Below the pieces are notes generated by a model. It saw only the letters and a program-made list of their open reading frames with translations, did not search any database and had not been told where the DNA came from. Made by a program: the position numbers and the translations under genes. A stretch of DNA of 64,000 bases. Origin: Yersinia bercovieri ATCC 43970 (GTDB lineage Bacteria; Pseudomonadota; Gammaproteobacteria; Enterobacterales; Enterobacteriaceae). Location: the NCBI RefSeq assembly GCF_013282745.1, contig NZ_CP054044.1:2232001-2296000 (forward strand). Direction: 5' to 3'. Below, in pieces: positions 48,705-56,216 of this stretch (position 1 is the stretch's first letter; each line of letters starts with the position of its first letter).

Positions 48705-48707
48705 ACG

Positions 48708-48833
48708 TATATCCTTCACCCCTGCCGTTACTGGGTTGTTCGCTCGCTACACTCACCCGAGTCACTGACTTAAGTTAGCGTCTCGGGACTGTTGCTTGCT
48801 GCCGACCTGTAACGTCAATGGCTTAGGATGTAA
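48708..48833 (-). repeat. ERIC element between cysC and ygbE
   Basis: About 126 bp with the ERIC block order on the minus strand: CATTGACGTTACAGGTCGGC, AAGTCAGTGACTCGGGTGAG and GTAGCGAGCGAACAACCC. One end is TATATCC and the other ends near GGATGTA. It fills the whole gap after cysC, starting four bases after its stop. Confidence 0.88.
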
Positions 48834-49327: not shown

Positions 49328-49783
49328 TCAGAGATTTTGTCGCTGCTCGTAATAGCTGATGCGTTCCACTTTTTCAGTTGAGCTGCCGCCATCGAAATCA
49401 CACTCAAGCCAGGTATCGACCAAGGTTTTGGCTAACTCAACACCAATCACCCGCGCGCCCAGACAGATGATCTGTGCATTATTGCTTTTTCTGGCCCGCT
49501 GGGCTGAGAAGGGGTCATGGCACTGTGCGGCACGAATGCCCAGCACTTTATTGGCCGTGATGCTCATACCAATGCCGGTTCCACAGATCAAAATTCCGCG
49601 TTCATGCTTGCCATCCTTAATGGCTTGAGCAACCTGAACGGCGATATCGGGGTAGATGGTGGGTTCGCGTTGTTGGTCGCAACTGTAATCGACAACAGTT
49701 ATGTTTTTGTTTTGCAGAAAGGCAAGAATCTGATTTTTCATATCAATAGCCGCATCATCACAGCCGATGGCAATAGATAACAT
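49328..49783 (-). CDS. RpiB/LacAB-family sugar-phosphate isomerase (possible D-erythrulose 4-phosphate isomerase)
   Basis: Family members interconvert phosphorylated aldoses and ketoses. The 151-aa product has the catalytic Cys in CGTGIGMSI and HDPFSAQRARKSNNAQ. The first motif reads GCDDAAIDMK; ribose-5-phosphate RpiB has GCDH or SDHAG there, so the usual His is Asp. GCD-acidic-AA forms occur in RpiB-like enzymes of polyol clusters, suggesting a substrate other than ribose 5-phosphate. AAGGGG precedes the ATG. It is divergent from the dehydrogenase-permease-kinase genes across a shared control region. With a DhaK-type kinase and dehydrogenases nearby, D-erythrulose 4-phosphate to D-erythrose 4-phosphate is the best-fitting reaction (inference). 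Confidence 0.9.
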   Translation of the reverse strand: MLSIAIGCDDAAIDMKNQILAFLQNKNITVVDYSCDQQREPTIYPDIAVQVAQAIKDGKHERGILICGTGIGMSITANKVLGIRAAQCHDPFSAQRARKSNNAQIICLGARVIGVELAKTLVDTWLECDFDGGSSTEKVERISYYEQRQNL

Positions 49784-50226
49784 ATTTCACCCCTTAACAA
49801 ATTGAACGGTAATCCGATTAACCACTTTTATTGCCGCCACACATTATTAGCGAGCTGATTACTGGGCATTTCGGCCTCAAGAACACAACATAATGTCATT
49901 AACAAAAGTTATTAATGTGTTCATATGTTTATTATATTTACTCCTTTCATTTGATCAGTCAATAAACTTATGTTCATTTTAAGCGAATCTTGATGTCGTT
50001 TGGATCTCCTATCGCCTTTCTCTTAGCCCACTAATCTCCCACTAAAATAGGGGCTATTGCCATTTTGCTTTTATTTATGATCTCCCTCACAGCCTGAGTA
50101 TTTTTTAATAGCGTAAATCTGGTGCTTAATCGTACTGTTCAATAGTACATTTAAAGATCTTATGTTCATCTCGTGTTATGGCGAACTTAAATTTATGACA
50201 AAGAAGAATTGTCGAAGGAGTCAATT
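49784..50226. promoter_or_regulatory. Divergent control region of the polyol cluster
   Basis: This 443-bp gap separates the isomerase gene from the dehydrogenase gene. TGTTCA occurs at 49918, 49971, 50136 and 50163. Two of these lie in an identical 11-mer, CTTATGTTCAT (49967-49977 and 50159-50169), and one lies in the inverted repeat GTACT...AGTAC (50132-50148). The motif recurs upstream of the SorC-family regulator gene (minus strand, 56338-56333), so these are candidate regulator operators. SorC-family operators elsewhere contain TGAACA/TGTTCA-like half-sites. Confidence 0.6.
50075..50092 (+). promoter_or_regulatory. Candidate CRP (cAMP receptor protein) site
   Basis: TATGA-TCTCCC-TCACA matches the CRP consensus TGTGA-N6-TCACA at nine of ten core positions. 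It lies about 140 bases before the dehydrogenase start, a plausible activation distance. It would put the polyol cluster under catabolite repression. Confidence 0.65.
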
Positions 50227-51342
50227 ATGTATAACGAATGTTCTAAAGATGCTCAGATGCTGGAAAATATTCCTAAAAATATGCGTGCAGTTGTTGCCTA
50301 TGGGCCAGGGGATTATCGGCTTGAGATAGTTTCGGTACCGACAATTGATGCGAAAGAGATTTTAGTTAAGGTTGAAGCCTGCGGTATCTGTGCTGGTGAT
50401 ACAAAAGCTTTTGGCGGCGCGCCCAGTTTTTGGGGTGATAAGACGCAACCCGCCTATATCAAAGCACCGATGATCCCCGGTCATGAGTTTATCGGCCACG
50501 TGGTGGGTCTTGGGGCTGAAGTTGAGGGGTTTGAGTTAGGCGATCGGGTGACCTCGGAACAGATCGTTCCTTGTTGGGAGTGTCGGTTCTGTAATCGTGG
50601 GCAGTATTGGATGTGTGAAAAACACGATCTCTACGGTTTTCAGCACAACGTTAATGGCGCAATGGCTGAATATATGAAATTCACCAAAGAGGCAATTAAT
50701 TACCGCGTTCCTGACGATCTTCCCTTGGAAAAAGCAATTCTGATCGAGCCATACGCGTGCTCTTTCCATGCTGTGCAGCGCGCCAATATCAAACTCGGCG
50801 ATGTTGTGGTGCTGGCTGGCGCAGGGACATTAGGGCTAGGCATGGTGGGGGCTATCAAAAAATCAGGCCCCGGCAAGCTGATTGTTTTGGATTTGTCCGA
50901 TGATCGCTTGGCACTGGCGAAGAAGTTTGGTGCCGATTTAGTGCTTAACCCCAGTAAAGATGACGTGATCTCTATTATTAAAGAGATGACCGACGGCTAT
51001 GGCTGCGATATCTACATTGAGGCCACTGGCGCGCAAAAGGCGGTAGAGCAGGGACTAACGCTACTACGCAAGTTGGGTACTTTTGTGGAGTTCTCGGTCT
51101 TCAAAGAGCCAGTGACGGTTGACTGGAGCATCATCAGTGACCGCAAAGAGCTGGATGTGTTGGGATCACATCTGGGGCCTTATTGCTACCCGCTGGTCAT
51201 CAAGGGCATCTGTAACGGTGACCTGCCAACCGATGGTGTGGTGACGCATATCCTACCGCTGGAGAGATTTGCCGAAGGCTTTGAGATGGTCACCAAAGGC
51301 ATCGGCTCTCTTAAAGTCGTCCTCAATCCCAATATCCAGTAA
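50227..51342 (+). CDS. Zinc-dependent polyol dehydrogenase (erythritol/L-threitol dehydrogenase-like)
   Basis: A medium-chain dehydrogenase of 371 aa. ATG 50227 has AAGGAG six bases upstream; a TTG at 50209 lies before that site. Catalytic zinc ligands are seen in CGICAGD and PGHEFIG, the four structural zinc Cys in CWECRFCNRGQYWMC, and the nucleotide fold in AGAGTLGLGMVGA with an acidic residue after strand two (LIVLDLS), favouring NAD. First gene of a five-gene operon with a polyol-type permease. EltD of Mycobacterium, which oxidises erythritol and L-threitol to erythruloses, is the functional model I have in mind; sorbitol- or xylitol-type substrates cannot be excluded. Confidence 0.88.
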   Translation: MYNECSKDAQMLENIPKNMRAVVAYGPGDYRLEIVSVPTIDAKEILVKVEACGICAGDTKAFGGAPSFWGDKTQPAYIKAPMIPGHEFIGHVVGLGAEVEGFELGDRVTSEQIVPCWECRFCNRGQYWMCEKHDLYGFQHNVNGAMAEYMKFTKEAINYRVPDDLPLEKAILIEPYACSFHAVQRANIKLGDVVVLAGAGTLGLGMVGAIKKSGPGKLIVLDLSDDRLALAKKFGADLVLNPSKDDVISIIKEMTDGYGCDIYIEATGAQKAVEQGLTLLRKLGTFVEFSVFKEPVTVDWSIISDRKELDVLGSHLGPYCYPLVIKGICNGDLPTDGVVTHILPLERFAEGFEMVTKGIGSLKVVLNPNIQ

Positions 51343-51377
51343 TCAGCGCATTATTTCCAAATCACAGGTGATGCACC

Positions 51378-52661
51378 ATGTTAAACATGTTGATTAAAAA
51401 GATAGGGCTGCCTAAGAAAATATTATTAGGTTATATCGGTGTACTGATATTTATGGCCGGGGAGGGACTGGAGCAAAGTTGGCTATCTGATTTCATTATT
51501 CGTCGCGGTTTGACGGTTGAAGAGTCCGGCCTGATGTTCAGTGTGTACGGCTTTGCCGTGGCGATTGCCGCATGGCTGTCCGGTGTATTAGCTGAAATGT
51601 TTACCGCTAAAAAGGTGATGGCGGCCGGTGTCGTGATTTTCCTGATAGGTTCTGTACTGTTCTTATCACTCGGCTTACCCAGCAATAACTTGTCAATTAT
51701 GATCCCGACCTATGCGCTACGCGGACTCGGCTACCCCTTGTTCTCATACGGCTTTTTAGTTTGGATTGCCTATGAAGCCCCTAGAGCCAAATTGGGGTCG
51801 GCGGTGGGTATTTTCTGGTTTGTGTTTACCGGCGGGCTAAGTGTCCTCGGGGTGTTCTACGCCAGTATTGCGCTGCCGATATTAGGGGAGATCCACACGC
51901 TGTGGAGCGGAATTGTGTTTGTTTTGATCGGGGCGGTGATTGGCCTGATGTTGAGCAAAGAGAGCAAAATTACTGCGCCAACGGATGCGCCACCTAAAAC
52001 CTTCACTTATCTGTTCAAAGGGGTGTCGATCGCCTTTGAGAATTACAAAATCGGGCTGGGTGGCCTTGTGCGCACCATTAACCTGTCGTTTGCTTTCGGC
52101 ATGATCGTTTTCCTGCCGACCTATCTGCAAGATGAGATTGGTTTTACCCGTGACCAGTGGTTGTCTATCTATGCCTTTATGTGGACAGTCAATATTGTCT
52201 TCAACTTATTGTCCGGTGTGATCAGTGACCGGTGGGGCTGGACGAATACCGTGATGTGGTTTGGCTGTGTGGGCAGCGCCATCTCTATCCTGCTGCTCTA
52301 TTACATCCCAACGAATTTTGGCGTTGAAGGCTACAGCTACACAATGCTGGCCGCTGGGGCGCTGGGCGCATGCTTCGCCGGATTTGTTCCCCTGTCAGCC
52401 ATTATGCCAAGTCTTGCGCCCAATGATAAAGGTGCGGCCATGTCAGTGCTGAACCTGGGGGCCGGGCTTTGTGCCTTCATCGGGCCACTGATCGTCACTC
52501 TCTTTATTGCTCCTTTAGGTATCGAAGGCATTATTTGGCTCTTCTCAGGGCTATACCTGGTTGCCGCCATCTTGATGAGGTTTGTCACCTTGCCAGCAGA
52601 CAGCCCTGATGAGCAACTGGAGGAGCACGAGCAGATCTACAGGGTGAACAAAACATTGTAA
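51378..52661 (+). CDS. MFS permease of the polyol (ribitol/arabinitol-type) family
   Basis: A 427-aa protein with about twelve hydrophobic helices and the major facilitator layout. FMAGEGLEQSWLSDFI, LMFSVYGFAVAIAAWLSG, ALRGLGYPLFSYGFLVWI and GAAMSVLNLGAGLCAFIGP correspond to stretches I recall from ribitol transporter RbtT and D-arabinitol transporter DalT. It probably imports the polyol by proton symport. It begins 35 bases after the dehydrogenase stop, with AGGTG before the ATG. Confidence 0.88.
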   Translation: MLNMLIKKIGLPKKILLGYIGVLIFMAGEGLEQSWLSDFIIRRGLTVEESGLMFSVYGFAVAIAAWLSGVLAEMFTAKKVMAAGVVIFLIGSVLFLSLGLPSNNLSIMIPTYALRGLGYPLFSYGFLVWIAYEAPRAKLGSAVGIFWFVFTGGLSVLGVFYASIALPILGEIHTLWSGIVFVLIGAVIGLMLSKESKITAPTDAPPKTFTYLFKGVSIAFENYKIGLGGLVRTINLSFAFGMIVFLPTYLQDEIGFTRDQWLSIYAFMWTVNIVFNLLSGVISDRWGWTNTVMWFGCVGSAISILLLYYIPTNFGVEGYSYTMLAAGALGACFAGFVPLSAIMPSLAPNDKGAAMSVLNLGAGLCAFIGPLIVTLFIAPLGIEGIIWLFSGLYLVAAILMRFVTLPADSPDEQLEEHEQIYRVNKTL

Positions 52662-52723
52662 CTCAGCACCTTACTAGCAGATCAGCCGTGATAACCAGAG
52701 AGCCATTGAAAGGGAGTTAAAAC

Positions 52724-53494
52724 ATGAAAGTTGAATACAACAGATTCAATGTTGATTTTTCTCTGCAAGGTAAAGTTGCCGCCATTACCGGCGGCGCAGC
52801 AGGAATTGGCTACGCCATTGCCGAGCTATTTTTGGCTAAGGGGGCGAAAGTTATCTTGATTGACTGTAATGATAGCGTCACTGAGGTGGCAAAGCAGCTA
52901 AATGCCGATAGCGCGAGCGGACTGTTTTGTGATGTCAGTGATAGCGAATCGGTCAAAATAGCGGTAGCCGAGGCGATCAATACCTTTAACCGACTGGATA
53001 TTTTAGTCAACTGTGCCGGAATTGTGGCGCTGAATCCGGCGGAAAAGACCACGGAGCAAGATTGGGACCGGACAATTAATGTCAATCTGAAAGGGGTTTT
53101 CCTCATGAGCCAGGAAGTGGGGCAGCATTTTATTGCCCAGGGCCATGGCAAGATCGTTAATTTGGCATCGCAAGCGGGGATCGTGGCGCTACCCAATCAC
53201 TTGGCCTATTGCACCAGTAAAGCCGGGGTGATCGGCATGACGAAAGTGCTGGCGCTCGAGTGGGGGCCGCTCGGGATACAAGTTAATGCGATCTCACCCA
53301 CCGTGGTATTAACTGAATTGGGCAAAAAGGCATGGTCAGGAGAGGTGGCGGAAGAGATGAAACTGAAAATTCCCGCTCGTCGTTTTGCTTACCCGGTCGA
53401 GGTCGCTGCCTGCGCGCTATTCCTGTCCAGTGACGCTGCTAACATGATCACCGGGGCAAATTTGGTGATTGATGGCGGCTATACCATCCAGTAG
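52724..53494 (+). CDS. Short-chain dehydrogenase/reductase (possible D-threitol dehydrogenase type)
   Basis: A classical SDR of 256 aa. The cofactor site is TGGAAGIGYAIAE with an Asp after strand two (LIDCND), pointing to NAD. NCAGIVAL, the catalytic Ser in NLASQAGI and YxxxK as YCTSK are intact, as is the C-terminal GANLVIDGGYT. AAAGGGAG precedes the ATG. A second dehydrogenase in the same operon suggests that the pathway accepts more than one stereoisomer or has two oxidation steps. In Mycobacterium the D-threitol dehydrogenase DthD is also an SDR; equivalence is inferred from context. Confidence 0.88.
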   Translation: MKVEYNRFNVDFSLQGKVAAITGGAAGIGYAIAELFLAKGAKVILIDCNDSVTEVAKQLNADSASGLFCDVSDSESVKIAVAEAINTFNRLDILVNCAGIVALNPAEKTTEQDWDRTINVNLKGVFLMSQEVGQHFIAQGHGKIVNLASQAGIVALPNHLAYCTSKAGVIGMTKVLALEWGPLGIQVNAISPTVVLTELGKKAWSGEVAEEMKLKIPARRFAYPVEVAACALFLSSDAANMITGANLVIDGGYTIQ

Positions 53495-53528
53495 TCCGCT
53501 ATCTATTTTCTGTTGCGAGGAGATTGTC

Positions 53529-54530
53529 ATGAACCGAATTATTAACGATCCCGACCACGTTGTTGAGGATGCCATCAAGGGGTATCTGGCGGCTTACCCA
53601 CATTTTTTCGCTAAAACGGATCATGAGAAAGTGTTGAAGCACCCCGAGGCCCCCTATAAAGGAAAGGTCGGTGTGGTGACTGGGGGCGGCTCTGGCCATG
53701 AGCCGGCATTTTTAGGTTACATTGGTAAAAATATGCTGGATGCAGTCGCTATCGGGGAGATTTTCTCCTCACCGGCGGCTGGCGCATTTTTAGCCGCCAT
53801 TAAAGCGGCTGACGGAGGGGCTGGTGTTGCTTGTCTGTATGGCAACTATGCCGGTGACAATATGAACGTCAAAATGGCGGTCAAAAAAGCGCAAGCGCTG
53901 GGCATCAAAGTCAGAACTGTCGTCGCCAATGATGATGTGGCCTCCGCTCCTGCGACAGAAAAAGAGAAACGCCGTGGGGTGGCCGGTGAAATTTTCATGT
54001 GGAAGGTGGGCGCTGCGGCTGCGGCTCAACACTATGAGTTAGATGCCGTCATTGATGTGGCGCAAAAAGCCATAGATAACTGCCGCTCGGTGGGGGTGGG
54101 TTTAACCTCTTGCACCATTCCGGCGGTAGGTAAACCTAACTTCCATATTGAAGATAGCATGATGGAAGTGGGTATTGGTCATCATGGCGAGCCGGGGATT
54201 CGGGTGGAGCCATTACAATCTGCGGCTCAGATTGCTCAAACCATGGTGGATATCGTGGTGGATGATGTGCCTTTTGTCGATGGTGATGATGTGGCGATTT
54301 TGATCTCCGGTTTAGGGGCCACGCCGACCCTTGAACTGTATATTTATTATGCTGAAGTTGTCAGCTTATTGAAAAATAAAGGGATAAATATATACCGCCC
54401 CTATATTGGTAACTATTTTACCTCGCTGGACATGATGGGTGTCACGCTGACATTGATGAAATTGGATGATGAATTAAAGGCGCTAATTGATGTGCCGACT
54501 CATTCATTAGGCTTAACGCAGGTGGAGTAA
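53529..54530 (+). CDS. DhaK-family kinase substrate-binding subunit (erythrulose/dihydroxyacetone kinase-like)
   Basis: A 333-aa DhaK-type subunit that binds a short keto-sugar covalently through a His. ATG 53529 follows GAGGAG; the frame open from 53469 overlaps the SDR gene and is not used. TGGGSGHEPAFLGYIG forms the nucleophile pocket, GNYAGDNMN and VVANDDVASA follow, and the covalent His lies in GIGHHGEPGIR. The ATP-binding DhaL part is the next gene, and no DhaM phosphotransfer subunit is seen in the cluster. That fits an ATP-dependent kinase of erythrulose; dihydroxyacetone is the alternative substrate. Confidence 0.9.
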   Translation: MNRIINDPDHVVEDAIKGYLAAYPHFFAKTDHEKVLKHPEAPYKGKVGVVTGGGSGHEPAFLGYIGKNMLDAVAIGEIFSSPAAGAFLAAIKAADGGAGVACLYGNYAGDNMNVKMAVKKAQALGIKVRTVVANDDVASAPATEKEKRRGVAGEIFMWKVGAAAAAQHYELDAVIDVAQKAIDNCRSVGVGLTSCTIPAVGKPNFHIEDSMMEVGIGHHGEPGIRVEPLQSAAQIAQTMVDIVVDDVPFVDGDDVAILISGLGATPTLELYIYYAEVVSLLKNKGINIYRPYIGNYFTSLDMMGVTLTLMKLDDELKALIDVPTHSLGLTQVE

Positions 54531-54533
54531 GGG

Positions 54534-55178
54534 ATGATGAGCGTATTTTGTAACCAAGATGGCACGCCGATTGTTGAGGAGTTGGTGGAGACTATTATCG
54601 CCAATCGCGACTATCTCAGTGAGATCGACGGCGCGATTGGCGATGGCGACCATGGCATCAATATGGCGAAAGGATTCAATATTTGTGCCGACAGTATCAA
54701 AGGTAAGGATCTGACGGTGTCCGAGGCGCTGGATGTACTGTCTGACTCCCTGATGGAGGGAATTGGTGGTTCGATGGGGCCGCTTTATGGCAGCATTTTT
54801 ATGGGCATGGCGGATAGTATCCGCAACTGCGATAACATTGATGCCACGGCATTTGGCACCATGTTGAGAGGCGGACTTTCCAGCTTACAGGATATTAGCG
54901 ATGCCGGTGTGGGTGATAAATGCATTATGGATACGCTGATCCCCACGGTCGAAGCATTCGAACTGGCGCAACAGCAGAATAAGTCCTTCGTTGAGTCACT
55001 CCACCTGATGAAAAATGCGGCCCATGCAGGGCGCGACTCCACCATTGATTTAGTCGCCAGAATTGGCCGGGCCAGCCGTTTGGGTGAGCGTTCTCGCGGT
55101 GTTTTAGACGCGGGGGCAACATCATGTTGCTTAATATTGAGTCAATTGGCTGATTCGGTAGAGCAGCGTTTGGTCTAG
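54534..55178 (+). CDS. DhaL-family kinase nucleotide-binding subunit
   Basis: The 214-aa product is the all-helical nucleotide-binding partner of the preceding DhaK subunit. The Mg-binding Asp motif AIGDGDHGINM, the Gly-rich GIGGSMGPLYGSIF loop, AGVGDKCIMDTL and GLR-like SRLGERSRGVLDAGATS are intact. It starts three bases after the dhaK-like stop (an alternative ATG follows at 54537). In PTS-dependent systems DhaL keeps ADP and is recharged by DhaM; with no DhaM nearby, direct use of ATP is more likely. Confidence 0.9.
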   Translation: MMSVFCNQDGTPIVEELVETIIANRDYLSEIDGAIGDGDHGINMAKGFNICADSIKGKDLTVSEALDVLSDSLMEGIGGSMGPLYGSIFMGMADSIRNCDNIDATAFGTMLRGGLSSLQDISDAGVGDKCIMDTLIPTVEAFELAQQQNKSFVESLHLMKNAAHAGRDSTIDLVARIGRASRLGERSRGVLDAGATSCCLILSQLADSVEQRLV

Positions 55179-55180
55179 TC

Positions 55181-55198
55181 AACCGCTAGGCGGCGGTT
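55181..55198. terminator. Stem-loop between the kinase and regulator genes
   Basis: AACCGC pairs with GCGGTT around six bases, directly after the dhaL-like stop, between convergent genes. No T run is present. Confidence 0.5.
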
Positions 55199-55244
55199 AG
55201 CCGGGACGCTGACCGCCGTATTGTCGCCAGCAGTAAAAGCCAGC

Positions 55245-56216
55245 TTAAGGTTGTTGCTGGATCATCTTCAAAATTGTCCGCGCATTTGATGCGCTGGTGG
55301 CAATAATATCAATCGCACCGGTGCGCAAAGCACCCAAAATAGCCAATGCTTTGGTGCTTTCGGAGGCGATAGCTATCACGCAAGGTATCTGGCGCAACTC
55401 TTGAGTACTGATGCCGATAACCCGATCGTTCATAACGGTATTCGCCGGCAGGCCCTGGGCGTCAAAGAAATCGTATCCGGCGATCTCACCGGTCACACCT
55501 TGATGCATACTGGCATCAACAATCTCCTGCGGCGTGAACCAGCCCAGTTTCACCATATAGCTGTTTTCATTCATATCACCAATACCGACCAGGGCGATAT
55601 CCGCTTTTCTGGCGCGATCGAGGGTCTCTTTGATGGTGCCATTTTGCATAAAAGCTTCTTTTAACGCACGATTTTCCACATACGCGGGGGCGTAAAGGGT
55701 TTCGCTGGAACCACCAAATTTTTTGGCTAGCCGACGGCTGATATGGTCGGCATTAATTGCATCACCGGGGCGATGTGTTCCGCCAATGCCGCAGATGAAC
55801 TTACACTGCCTTTCCGGCACGATGCTAACGTGATCGGCGATGGCGGCGATATTACGCCCCTGTCCAACCGCTAATACCGTGTTGTCTTTTAAATTTGTTG
55901 CCAGATAGCCGGAAACCAGCGAGGCAACCTGACGCCGCTGCTCATCTTCATCTTGATAATCCAGCGCGATCAATGCCCGTTTCAGGCCAAAATGCTCAAT
56001 CAACTGCTGTTCGAGGCGGGTGCTAAACACCGGATGATAACGTACTGTAATCTCAACAATGCCCTCGGCTTTTGCCCGCTTAAGCAGCCGCCCGACCTTG
56101 ATCCTTGAAATACCAAACTTATGTGCAATCTCTTCCTGCGTCATTTCATCTTGGTAATAAGACACTGCAATTTCAGTTAACAATTCATTATCTGGCGGAA
56201 TTGTTTGTTTTTCCAT
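55245..56216 (-). CDS. SorC-family transcriptional regulator of the polyol cluster
   Basis: A 323-aa DNA-binding sugar-sensing regulator. The N-terminal helix-turn-helix is clear (YYQDEMTQEEIAHKFGISRIKVGRLLKRAKAEGIVEI, broken here only by prose: motif QEEIAHKFGISR near residue 27). The C-terminal sugar-binding domain has VLAVGQGRNIAAIADHV and ICGIGGTHRPGDAINADHI. ATG 56216 is preferred; a TTG at 56234 is possible. It faces the operon at its far end. TGTTCA on its coding strand (56338-56333), about 115 bases upstream, matches the motifs in the divergent control region, suggesting that it regulates both itself and the pathway genes. Confidence 0.9.
   Translation of the reverse strand: MEKQTIPPDNELLTEIAVSYYQDEMTQEEIAHKFGISRIKVGRLLKRAKAEGIVEITVRYHPVFSTRLEQQLIEHFGLKRALIALDYQDEDEQRRQVASLVSGYLATNLKDNTVLAVGQGRNIAAIADHVSIVPERQCKFICGIGGTHRPGDAINADHISRRLAKKFGGSSETLYAPAYVENRALKEAFMQNGTIKETLDRARKADIALVGIGDMNENSYMVKLGWFTPQEIVDASMHQGVTGEIAGYDFFDAQGLPANTVMNDRVIGISTQELRQIPCVIAIASESTKALAILGALRTGAIDIIATSASNARTILKMIQQQP

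Follow-up and report, generated by a model that had tools for sequence, protein, structure and literature searches.

The tetritol pathways of Mycobacterium smegmatis, which Huang et al. reportedly described in 2015, run through the enzymes EltD, DthD, LerK/DerK, LerI and DerI. For comparison we take the enzyme families of this pathway and the roles of DerK and DthD as generally described, with tetritol uptake by ATP-binding cassette (ABC) transport and with LerI as an enzyme of the EryH kind, presumably in the TIM family. Here, we analysed a 64,000-nt stretch of the Yersinia bercovieri ATCC 43970 genome (positions 2,232,001 to 2,296,000 of contig NZ_CP054044.1), called the window below, and found a seven-gene cassette at 49328–56216 (cassette coordinates are window positions) that, judged from its sequence, is likely to serve the catabolism of tetritols (D-threitol/erythritol). 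As in the M. smegmatis pathways outlined in excerpts of PMC10733421 and PMC12780249, the cassette would combine oxidation to erythrulose with a DhaK-type kinase and a DerI-type isomerase leading to D-erythrose 4-phosphate. Unlike those pathways, it has a two-subunit kinase, major facilitator superfamily (MFS) transport, a SorC regulator and no LerI candidate, and its relatives add transaldolase and transketolase genes in some cases as well as plasmid forms.

A second route is the rhizobiales ery pathway, in which, according to excerpts of PMC5992420 and PMC10190533, EryA phosphorylates erythritol first and EryB, EryC and EryH follow; EryH is a TIM-family enzyme (TpiA2) and EryI an RpiB-family enzyme (PMC5992420, in excerpt). 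The Yersinia cassette resembles it in the final RpiB-family isomerase forming D-erythrose 4-phosphate, and Ser99 is common to EryI and the window enzyme. In contrast, EryA, EryB, EryC and EryH are all missing from the locus, and an ery-type route was rejected on this ground; the seven genes include no kinase family other than Dak, no GlpD-like gene and no TIM gene (the rest of the genome was checked for TIM only). The excerpt of PMC5992420 further suggests that bacteria lacking eryA/eryB may use tetruloses through a dihydroxyacetone (DHA) kinase together with EryH/EryI-like isomerases, and it mentions the Yarrowia EYK1 cluster. The cassette agrees with this idea in that an enzyme of the DHA kinase family would feed an RpiB-family isomerase for tetrulose phosphates. 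It differs in that the idea, as given in that excerpt, concerns L-erythrulose and an EryH homologue, whereas no second TIM gene is present here and D-erythrulose is expected.

Seven open reading frames lie between ygbE and ftsB. The preliminary description had assigned their identities, placed them between genes that are neighbours in E. coli and reported DhaK and DhaL subunits without DhaM; domain and profile matches and the gene order of E. coli K-12, where cysC, ygbE and ftsB are directly adjacent, confirmed these statements, and DhaM is not among the seven genes. The frames are:

49328–49783, minus strand: isomerase of the RpiB/LacAB family (PF02502)
50227–51342, plus strand: zinc alcohol dehydrogenase (ADH), predicted tetritol (erythritol) dehydrogenase (PF08240 and PF00107)
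51378–52661, plus strand: MFS polyol permease of the RbtT/DalT/CsbX family (TIGR00897)
52724–53494, plus strand: short-chain dehydrogenase/reductase (SDR) of the GolD/DthD family, predicted D-threitol dehydrogenase (NF005309)
53529–54530, plus strand: DhaK-type ketose-binding kinase subunit (Dak1), predicted D-erythrulose kinase (PF02733)
54534–55178, plus strand: DhaL-type nucleotide-binding kinase subunit (Dak2; PF02734, TIGR02365)
55245–56216, minus strand: sugar-binding transcriptional regulator of the SorC/DeoR type (PF04198)

The isomerase gene is thus divergent from the ADH-MFS-SDR-dhaK-dhaL series, and the regulator gene is convergent with it. In the pathway that we propose, the permease would import the polyol, the SDR (DthD family) would convert D-threitol to D-erythrulose and the zinc ADH would convert erythritol to D-erythrulose. 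The two-subunit DhaK and DhaL kinase, probably using ATP, would then form D-erythrulose 4-phosphate, and the RpiB-fold isomerase would turn this into D-erythrose 4-phosphate, which could enter central metabolism through the transaldolase and transketolase of the host or, in some relatives, through neighbouring copies. The SorC-type regulator may sense a pathway intermediate, perhaps with additional activation by the cAMP receptor protein (CRP) and cAMP. Each reaction, its stereochemistry, the phosphoryl donor and the regulation are predictions from the genes. According to the excerpt of PMC10733421, EltD and LerK together convert L-threitol to L-erythrulose 1-phosphate and erythritol to D-erythrulose 4-phosphate; an erythritol route therefore needs only DerI afterwards, and a locus with a DhaK-type kinase, a DerI-type isomerase and two dehydrogenases but without LerI fits that route. 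The whole genome holds a single TIM-family gene, so that no LerI candidate is present, provided that LerI belongs to that family. This bears out the earlier claim that a LerI-like isomerase is absent and that D-erythrulose is the likelier intermediate; an L-erythrulose route via LerI was rejected for want of a second TIM gene, and L-threitol use is therefore not expected.

The isomerase passed two general models, NF004051 (196.7 bits against a cut-off of 135) and TIGR00689 (160 against 88.3), and shares its fold family and Cys66 with ribose-5-phosphate isomerase B. However, it lacks three characteristic residues of that enzyme: in E. coli RpiB numbering it carries Asp10, Cys66, Ser99, Ser133 and Lys137, whereas E. 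coli RpiB has His10, Cys66, His99, Arg133 and Arg137. An ordinary housekeeping RpiB was rejected on the replacement of His10, His99 and Arg137 by Asp, Ser and Lys. In E. coli RpiB, opening of the ribose ring falls to His99; D-erythrulose 4-phosphate is unable to close into a ring of this kind, and loss of His99 would suit a tetrose phosphate. A genome scan for DhaK loci, of which the best 80 of 358 were kept (counts per 80 thus describe the nearest relatives), yielded an RpiB-family isomerase in 72 loci, and Ser99 and Lys137 were present in all 73 rows, Budvicia contributing two. Among 398 Pseudomonadota genomes, all 13 proteins above the cut-off of NF051858, a curated model for D-erythrulose-4-phosphate isomerase (DerI) whose name points to rhizobia, carry Ser10, Ser99 and Asn137, and the 12 other proteins below that cut-off all carry Ser99 and Lys137. 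The 14 named control genomes, among them that of E. coli, gave no match to this model (E up to 1e-40). Furthermore, a background search with PF02502 in a phylum sample of 150 genomes found 61 matches in 60 genomes; 51 of these served as background rows outside the DerI-like group, the other 10, window included, having already been counted via NF051858, and His10, His99 and Arg137 were all kept in 51/51. In a maximum-likelihood tree of 84 rows, the number left after most Pseudomonas rows and a few duplicates were thinned, the window enzyme, its relatives and the DerI/EryI rows formed a 53-row clade (support 99/97), and E. coli RpiB and the background rows fell outside it. By residues and phylogeny, the isomerase groups with D-erythrulose-4-phosphate isomerases and not with housekeeping RpiB. 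It is the only PF02502 match in its genome at E up to 1e-20; one rpiA is also present, and the window enzyme is therefore not needed as a housekeeping ribose-phosphate isomerase. The genome further has one talAB gene over the cut-off. Where the surroundings of DerI/EryI genes were read, a TIM gene and a transketolase gene adjoined the isomerase in one of four (L219).

DhaL passed TIGR02365 (160.6 bits against 138.3), and DhaK, which is 96% identical to the Yersinia aleksiciae protein, passed the cut-off of no curated DhaK model. With the DhaKLM systems that depend on the phosphotransferase system (PTS), the cassette shares the Dak1 and Dak2 subunits and residues matching His56, Asp109 and His218, which have catalytic roles in E. 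coli DhaK. It differs from them in the lack of DhaM, in an identity of about 36–38% and in altered residues around the catalytic ones, as seen from 100 locus-type rows, duplicates and close kin included, and 31 PTS-type rows: Ala at position 59 (96/100) vs Met (29/31), Phe at 60 (99/100) vs His (31/31), Gly at 104 (100/100) vs Lys (31/31), Ala at 107 (92/100) vs Thr (31/31), Asn at 110 (90/100) vs Ile (29/31) and His at 217 (91/100) vs Ile (31/31). The place of His218 is taken by Gln in one locus-type row and by Tyr in one PTS-type row. DhaM was matched in 0/80 related loci, while three control loci did match; because DhaM is missing, ATP is the likely phosphoryl donor. A second DhaK, about 36–38% identical to that of the cassette, is encoded near 2.02 Mb together with dhaL. 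Genes for a DhaM-like PTS protein and for an iron-type ADH akin to glycerol dehydrogenase lie with them, and DHA therefore already has its own system in this genome. In another Yersinia genome (G004, L126:2814–9395), a dhaKLM cluster stands beside an extra DhaK-like protein of 550 amino acids, perhaps a second DHA kinase.

The Listeria gol operon is a glycerol/DHA system, and the cassette could be read in the same way, with the SDR turning glycerol into DHA, DhaKL forming dihydroxyacetone phosphate (DHAP) and the isomerase as an accessory. The SDR model is indeed named GolD/DthD, and both kinase subunits belong to DHA kinase families. Nevertheless, we ranked DHA or glycerol as the main role very low on the separate dhaKLM with its iron-type ADH and on the absence of DhaM in 80/80 related loci; in addition, a Ser99 isomerase, and the transaldolase and transketolase of some relatives, are not needed to reach DHAP.

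The SDR passed the GolD/DthD-family model NF005309 (412.4 bits against 286), and its best solved relative is 4npc, named sorbitol dehydrogenase. The zinc ADH, whose ATG start lies behind AAGGAG, has the PF08240 and PF00107 domains and passed no curated NCBIfam cut-off. The permease passed TIGR00897 (514.5 bits against 375). For the regulator, PF04198 gave 272.8 bits, weak helix-turn-helix matches were found at residues 17–60, the DeoR equivalog model NF053881 was not passed (166.7 against 420), and the nearest solved chain is 3kv1 (356.8 bits).

The gene set recurs in Enterobacterales, Pseudomonas, Bacillota and plasmids, and it is thus not a chance neighbourhood. Besides the isomerase, the 80 loci contained the SDR in 68, the zinc ADH in 64, the SorC regulator in 64 and this MFS type in seven; a sugar-ABC ATPase was matched in 65. 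The transporter is exchanged among relatives, and the DhaKL-isomerase core stays largely the same. The two dehydrogenases occur together in 56 loci, the SDR alone in 12, the ADH alone in eight and neither in four. After loci with a split ADH (L073) or a split SDR (L049) and loci cut by a contig end (L023, L044) were set aside, 11 SDR-only and five ADH-only loci remained, suggesting that a single ketose is reached from two entry points. Seven loci (Budvicia, Edaphovirga, Serratia oryzae, Thorsellia and three Pseudomonas) have transaldolase beside the isomerase, and in two of them, Budvicia and Edaphovirga, transketolase adjoins it as well; Pseudomonas gave three further transketolase matches, at the distal end of the stretch that was fetched. 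In Budvicia aquatica (L004:10725–14903), a second Ser99 isomerase gene and PdxA-like, DtnK-like and MFS genes stand between dhaL and sorC; the cut-offs for D-threonate kinase and D-threonate-4-phosphate dehydrogenase were not reached by the DtnK- and PdxA-like genes, and the insert hints at a linked route for C4 acid sugars.

Phenotypes of one species that carries the locus are on record. According to excerpts of PMC9412563, 89.5% of 48 Pseudomonas viridiflava isolates were erythritol-positive and 2% were adonitol-positive, D-arabitol not being in the table; an excerpt of PMC3338640 also gives the species as erythritol-positive. The locus is present in three P. viridiflava genomes (L044, truncated at a contig end, L051 and L074). 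Yersinia fenwicki, which may or may not have the locus, is erythritol-negative in an excerpt of PMC12828076. Tetritol chemistry with a split kinase had been proposed in the preliminary description, and the DerI-like residues of the isomerase, the separate dhaKLM, the transaldolase and transketolase of the relatives and the erythritol-positive P. viridiflava lend it support.

Several observations weigh against a tetritol role. The isomerase passed the rpiB model TIGR01120 (159.8 bits against 138.65) and did not pass the DerI model NF051858 (169.8 against 240). Ribitol and D-arabitol are the substrates after which the permease family is named. The zinc ADH and the SDR could each act on other polyols, and the ADH and the kinase were likened to the tested enzymes EltD, DerK and LerK only at the level of protein family. 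No transaldolase match was found within the fetched stretch in 73/80 loci, and the phenotypes and genomes of P. viridiflava come from different strains. DhaK kinship is also unspecific by itself: Sinorhizobium meliloti has a 63% identical DhaK in a dhaKL-dhaKL tandem that is clustered with ABC genes (L189/L190), near which the window isomerase, ADH and SDR found no match. DhaK alone was rejected as a marker of the system on this relative. On the S. meliloti plasmid p_2 (L190:8001–12572), the 63% homologue is the first DhaK of two dhaK-dhaL pairs.

The name of the permease family and the match to the rpiB model speak for a pentitol cassette, in which permease and dehydrogenases deliver a pentulose from ribitol, D-arabitol or xylitol to DhaKL and the RpiB-like enzyme, and the transaldolase and transketolase of the relatives also suit pentose phosphates. 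Such a role is improbable in our judgement, as none of the seven genes encodes an FGGY-type pentulokinase, the isomerase lacks the residues matching His10, His99 and Arg137, and P. viridiflava was rarely adonitol-positive and mostly erythritol-positive (PMC9412563, in excerpt). It is also improbable that the true substrate is a tetrulose in free form or a C4 relative of it (erythrulose, threose or a tetronate-linked compound), with mainly auxiliary or reducing dehydrogenases. This reading is favoured by the four loci in whose fetched stretch both dehydrogenases are missing (L048, L056, L079, L080), the PdxA-like and DtnK-like genes of Budvicia and the growth of isolates on L-erythrulose or D-erythrose in an excerpt of PMC12780249, and opposed by the two polyol-type dehydrogenases and polyol-family permease of this cassette and by the presence of at least one of the two dehydrogenases in 76/80 loci.

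The distribution of the tetritol cassette is patchy. The host genome (4.40 Mb, two contigs) has cysC and ygbE to the left of it and ftsB, followed by ispD/ispF/truD-like frames, to the right; the cassette has a GC content (0.49) close to that of the window (0.506). A close DhaK homologue (at least 86% identity) was found in 5/25 Yersinia genomes. The gap from cysC to ftsB is ~8 kb in four of the 25, 3.2–3.5 kb in 18 and < 1 kb in three. Four of the 18 intermediate cases were opened: in three (L116, L117, L123) the space from ygbE to ftsB is occupied by three genes for an ABC transporter that includes a family-3 solute-binding protein (families verified in one of the three), and the fourth has other genes, between cysC and ygbE. 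The ygbE-ftsB slot is empty in three more Yersinia. In the fifth carrier (G022, like Y. similis) the slot is empty, and the cassette lies elsewhere, near arsB/arsC-type genes, without the MFS gene. By these contents, ygbE-ftsB is a variable spot with alternative cargo, and the word 'island' used earlier for the locus holds in the sense of a patchy presence in such a slot.

In a plasmid collection, 120 records matched the cassette DhaK, and nine were opened, two from Sinorhizobium and all seven enterobacterial ones among the matches listed. Five of the latter (three Klebsiella, one E. coli and one Raoultella plasmid; L186, L187, L191, L193, L194) have tkt-tal-rpiB divergent from ADH-MFS-dhaK-dhaL-sorC, without the SDR, and transposase genes on both sides, of IS1 or IS5 towards tkt and of IS66 or IS3 towards sorC. 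In two Salmonella plasmids (L188, L192), tal-rpiB diverges from ADH-MFS-SDR-dhaK-dhaL-sorC, and a transposase gene lies towards tal. Three of the seven enterobacterial plasmids were typed as conjugative, and Asp10, Ser99 and Lys137 are present in all seven isomerases. A matching dhaK was found in 1/5426 complete E. coli genomes, on the E. coli plasmid mentioned above. We considered whether the locus is a mobile, nearly self-sufficient tetritol cassette among Enterobacterales, a proposal to which we give slightly better than even chances. Its fullest plasmid form, in Klebsiella, E. coli and Raoultella, would comprise a permease, a dehydrogenase, a split ATP-dependent D-erythrulose kinase, a D-erythrulose-4-phosphate isomerase, transaldolase, transketolase and a regulator, with transposase genes near both ends; it may add growth on D-threitol or erythritol to hosts without it, with the SDR/zinc ADH and the transporter as swappable modules on a constant DhaKL-DerI core. 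The proposal was made slightly less likely by the tetrulose idea for DHA kinase already in print and by the lack of a transaldolase match in most related loci.

Two further features lie between the divergent isomerase and ADH genes:

49784–50226, no strand: divergent intergenic control region, A+T-rich, GC 0.348 (sequence, composition and alignment with eight relatives)
50076–50091, plus strand: CRP-like site TATGATCTCCCTCACA (pattern match, weak alone)

The CRP-like pattern was matched once in the window vs 0.25 expected, and at least one match occurred in 22/100 shuffles; TWTGA-N6-TCACA was present in 7/9 intergenic regions examined. A simple regulator motif, ACATWTGTTTA with one mismatch allowed, did not stand out from chance (3 matches vs 2.12 expected), and no operator is therefore claimed. 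Outside the cassette, 48705–48830, between cysC and ygbE, is a candidate short interspersed repeat as judged by eye.

The chemistry proposed for the cassette is of a known kind; what sets it apart is that the kinase is split, that LerI is missing and that the genes are packaged in mobile form. Beyond the preliminary description, the analysis adds the residue signature of the isomerase, a core on which dehydrogenases and transporters are exchanged, the transaldolase and transketolase partners and the plasmid forms. A description of the locus was not found in the titles and abstract openings of open-licence literature, a search outside which most subscription papers fall, so that it is no proof of priority. 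Among genes annotated as ribose-5-phosphate isomerase B, the residue signature offers a simple way to pick out those likely to encode tetrose-phosphate isomerases, and the pathway, if true, would reach erythrose 4-phosphate by a short route that does without LerI. Erythritol is in wide use as a sweetener, and few enteric bacteria are known to ferment it. If the reading is true, a transferable tetritol cassette in Yersinia, Budvicia, Edaphovirga and Serratia and on plasmids of Klebsiella, Salmonella, E. coli and Raoultella would change this picture.

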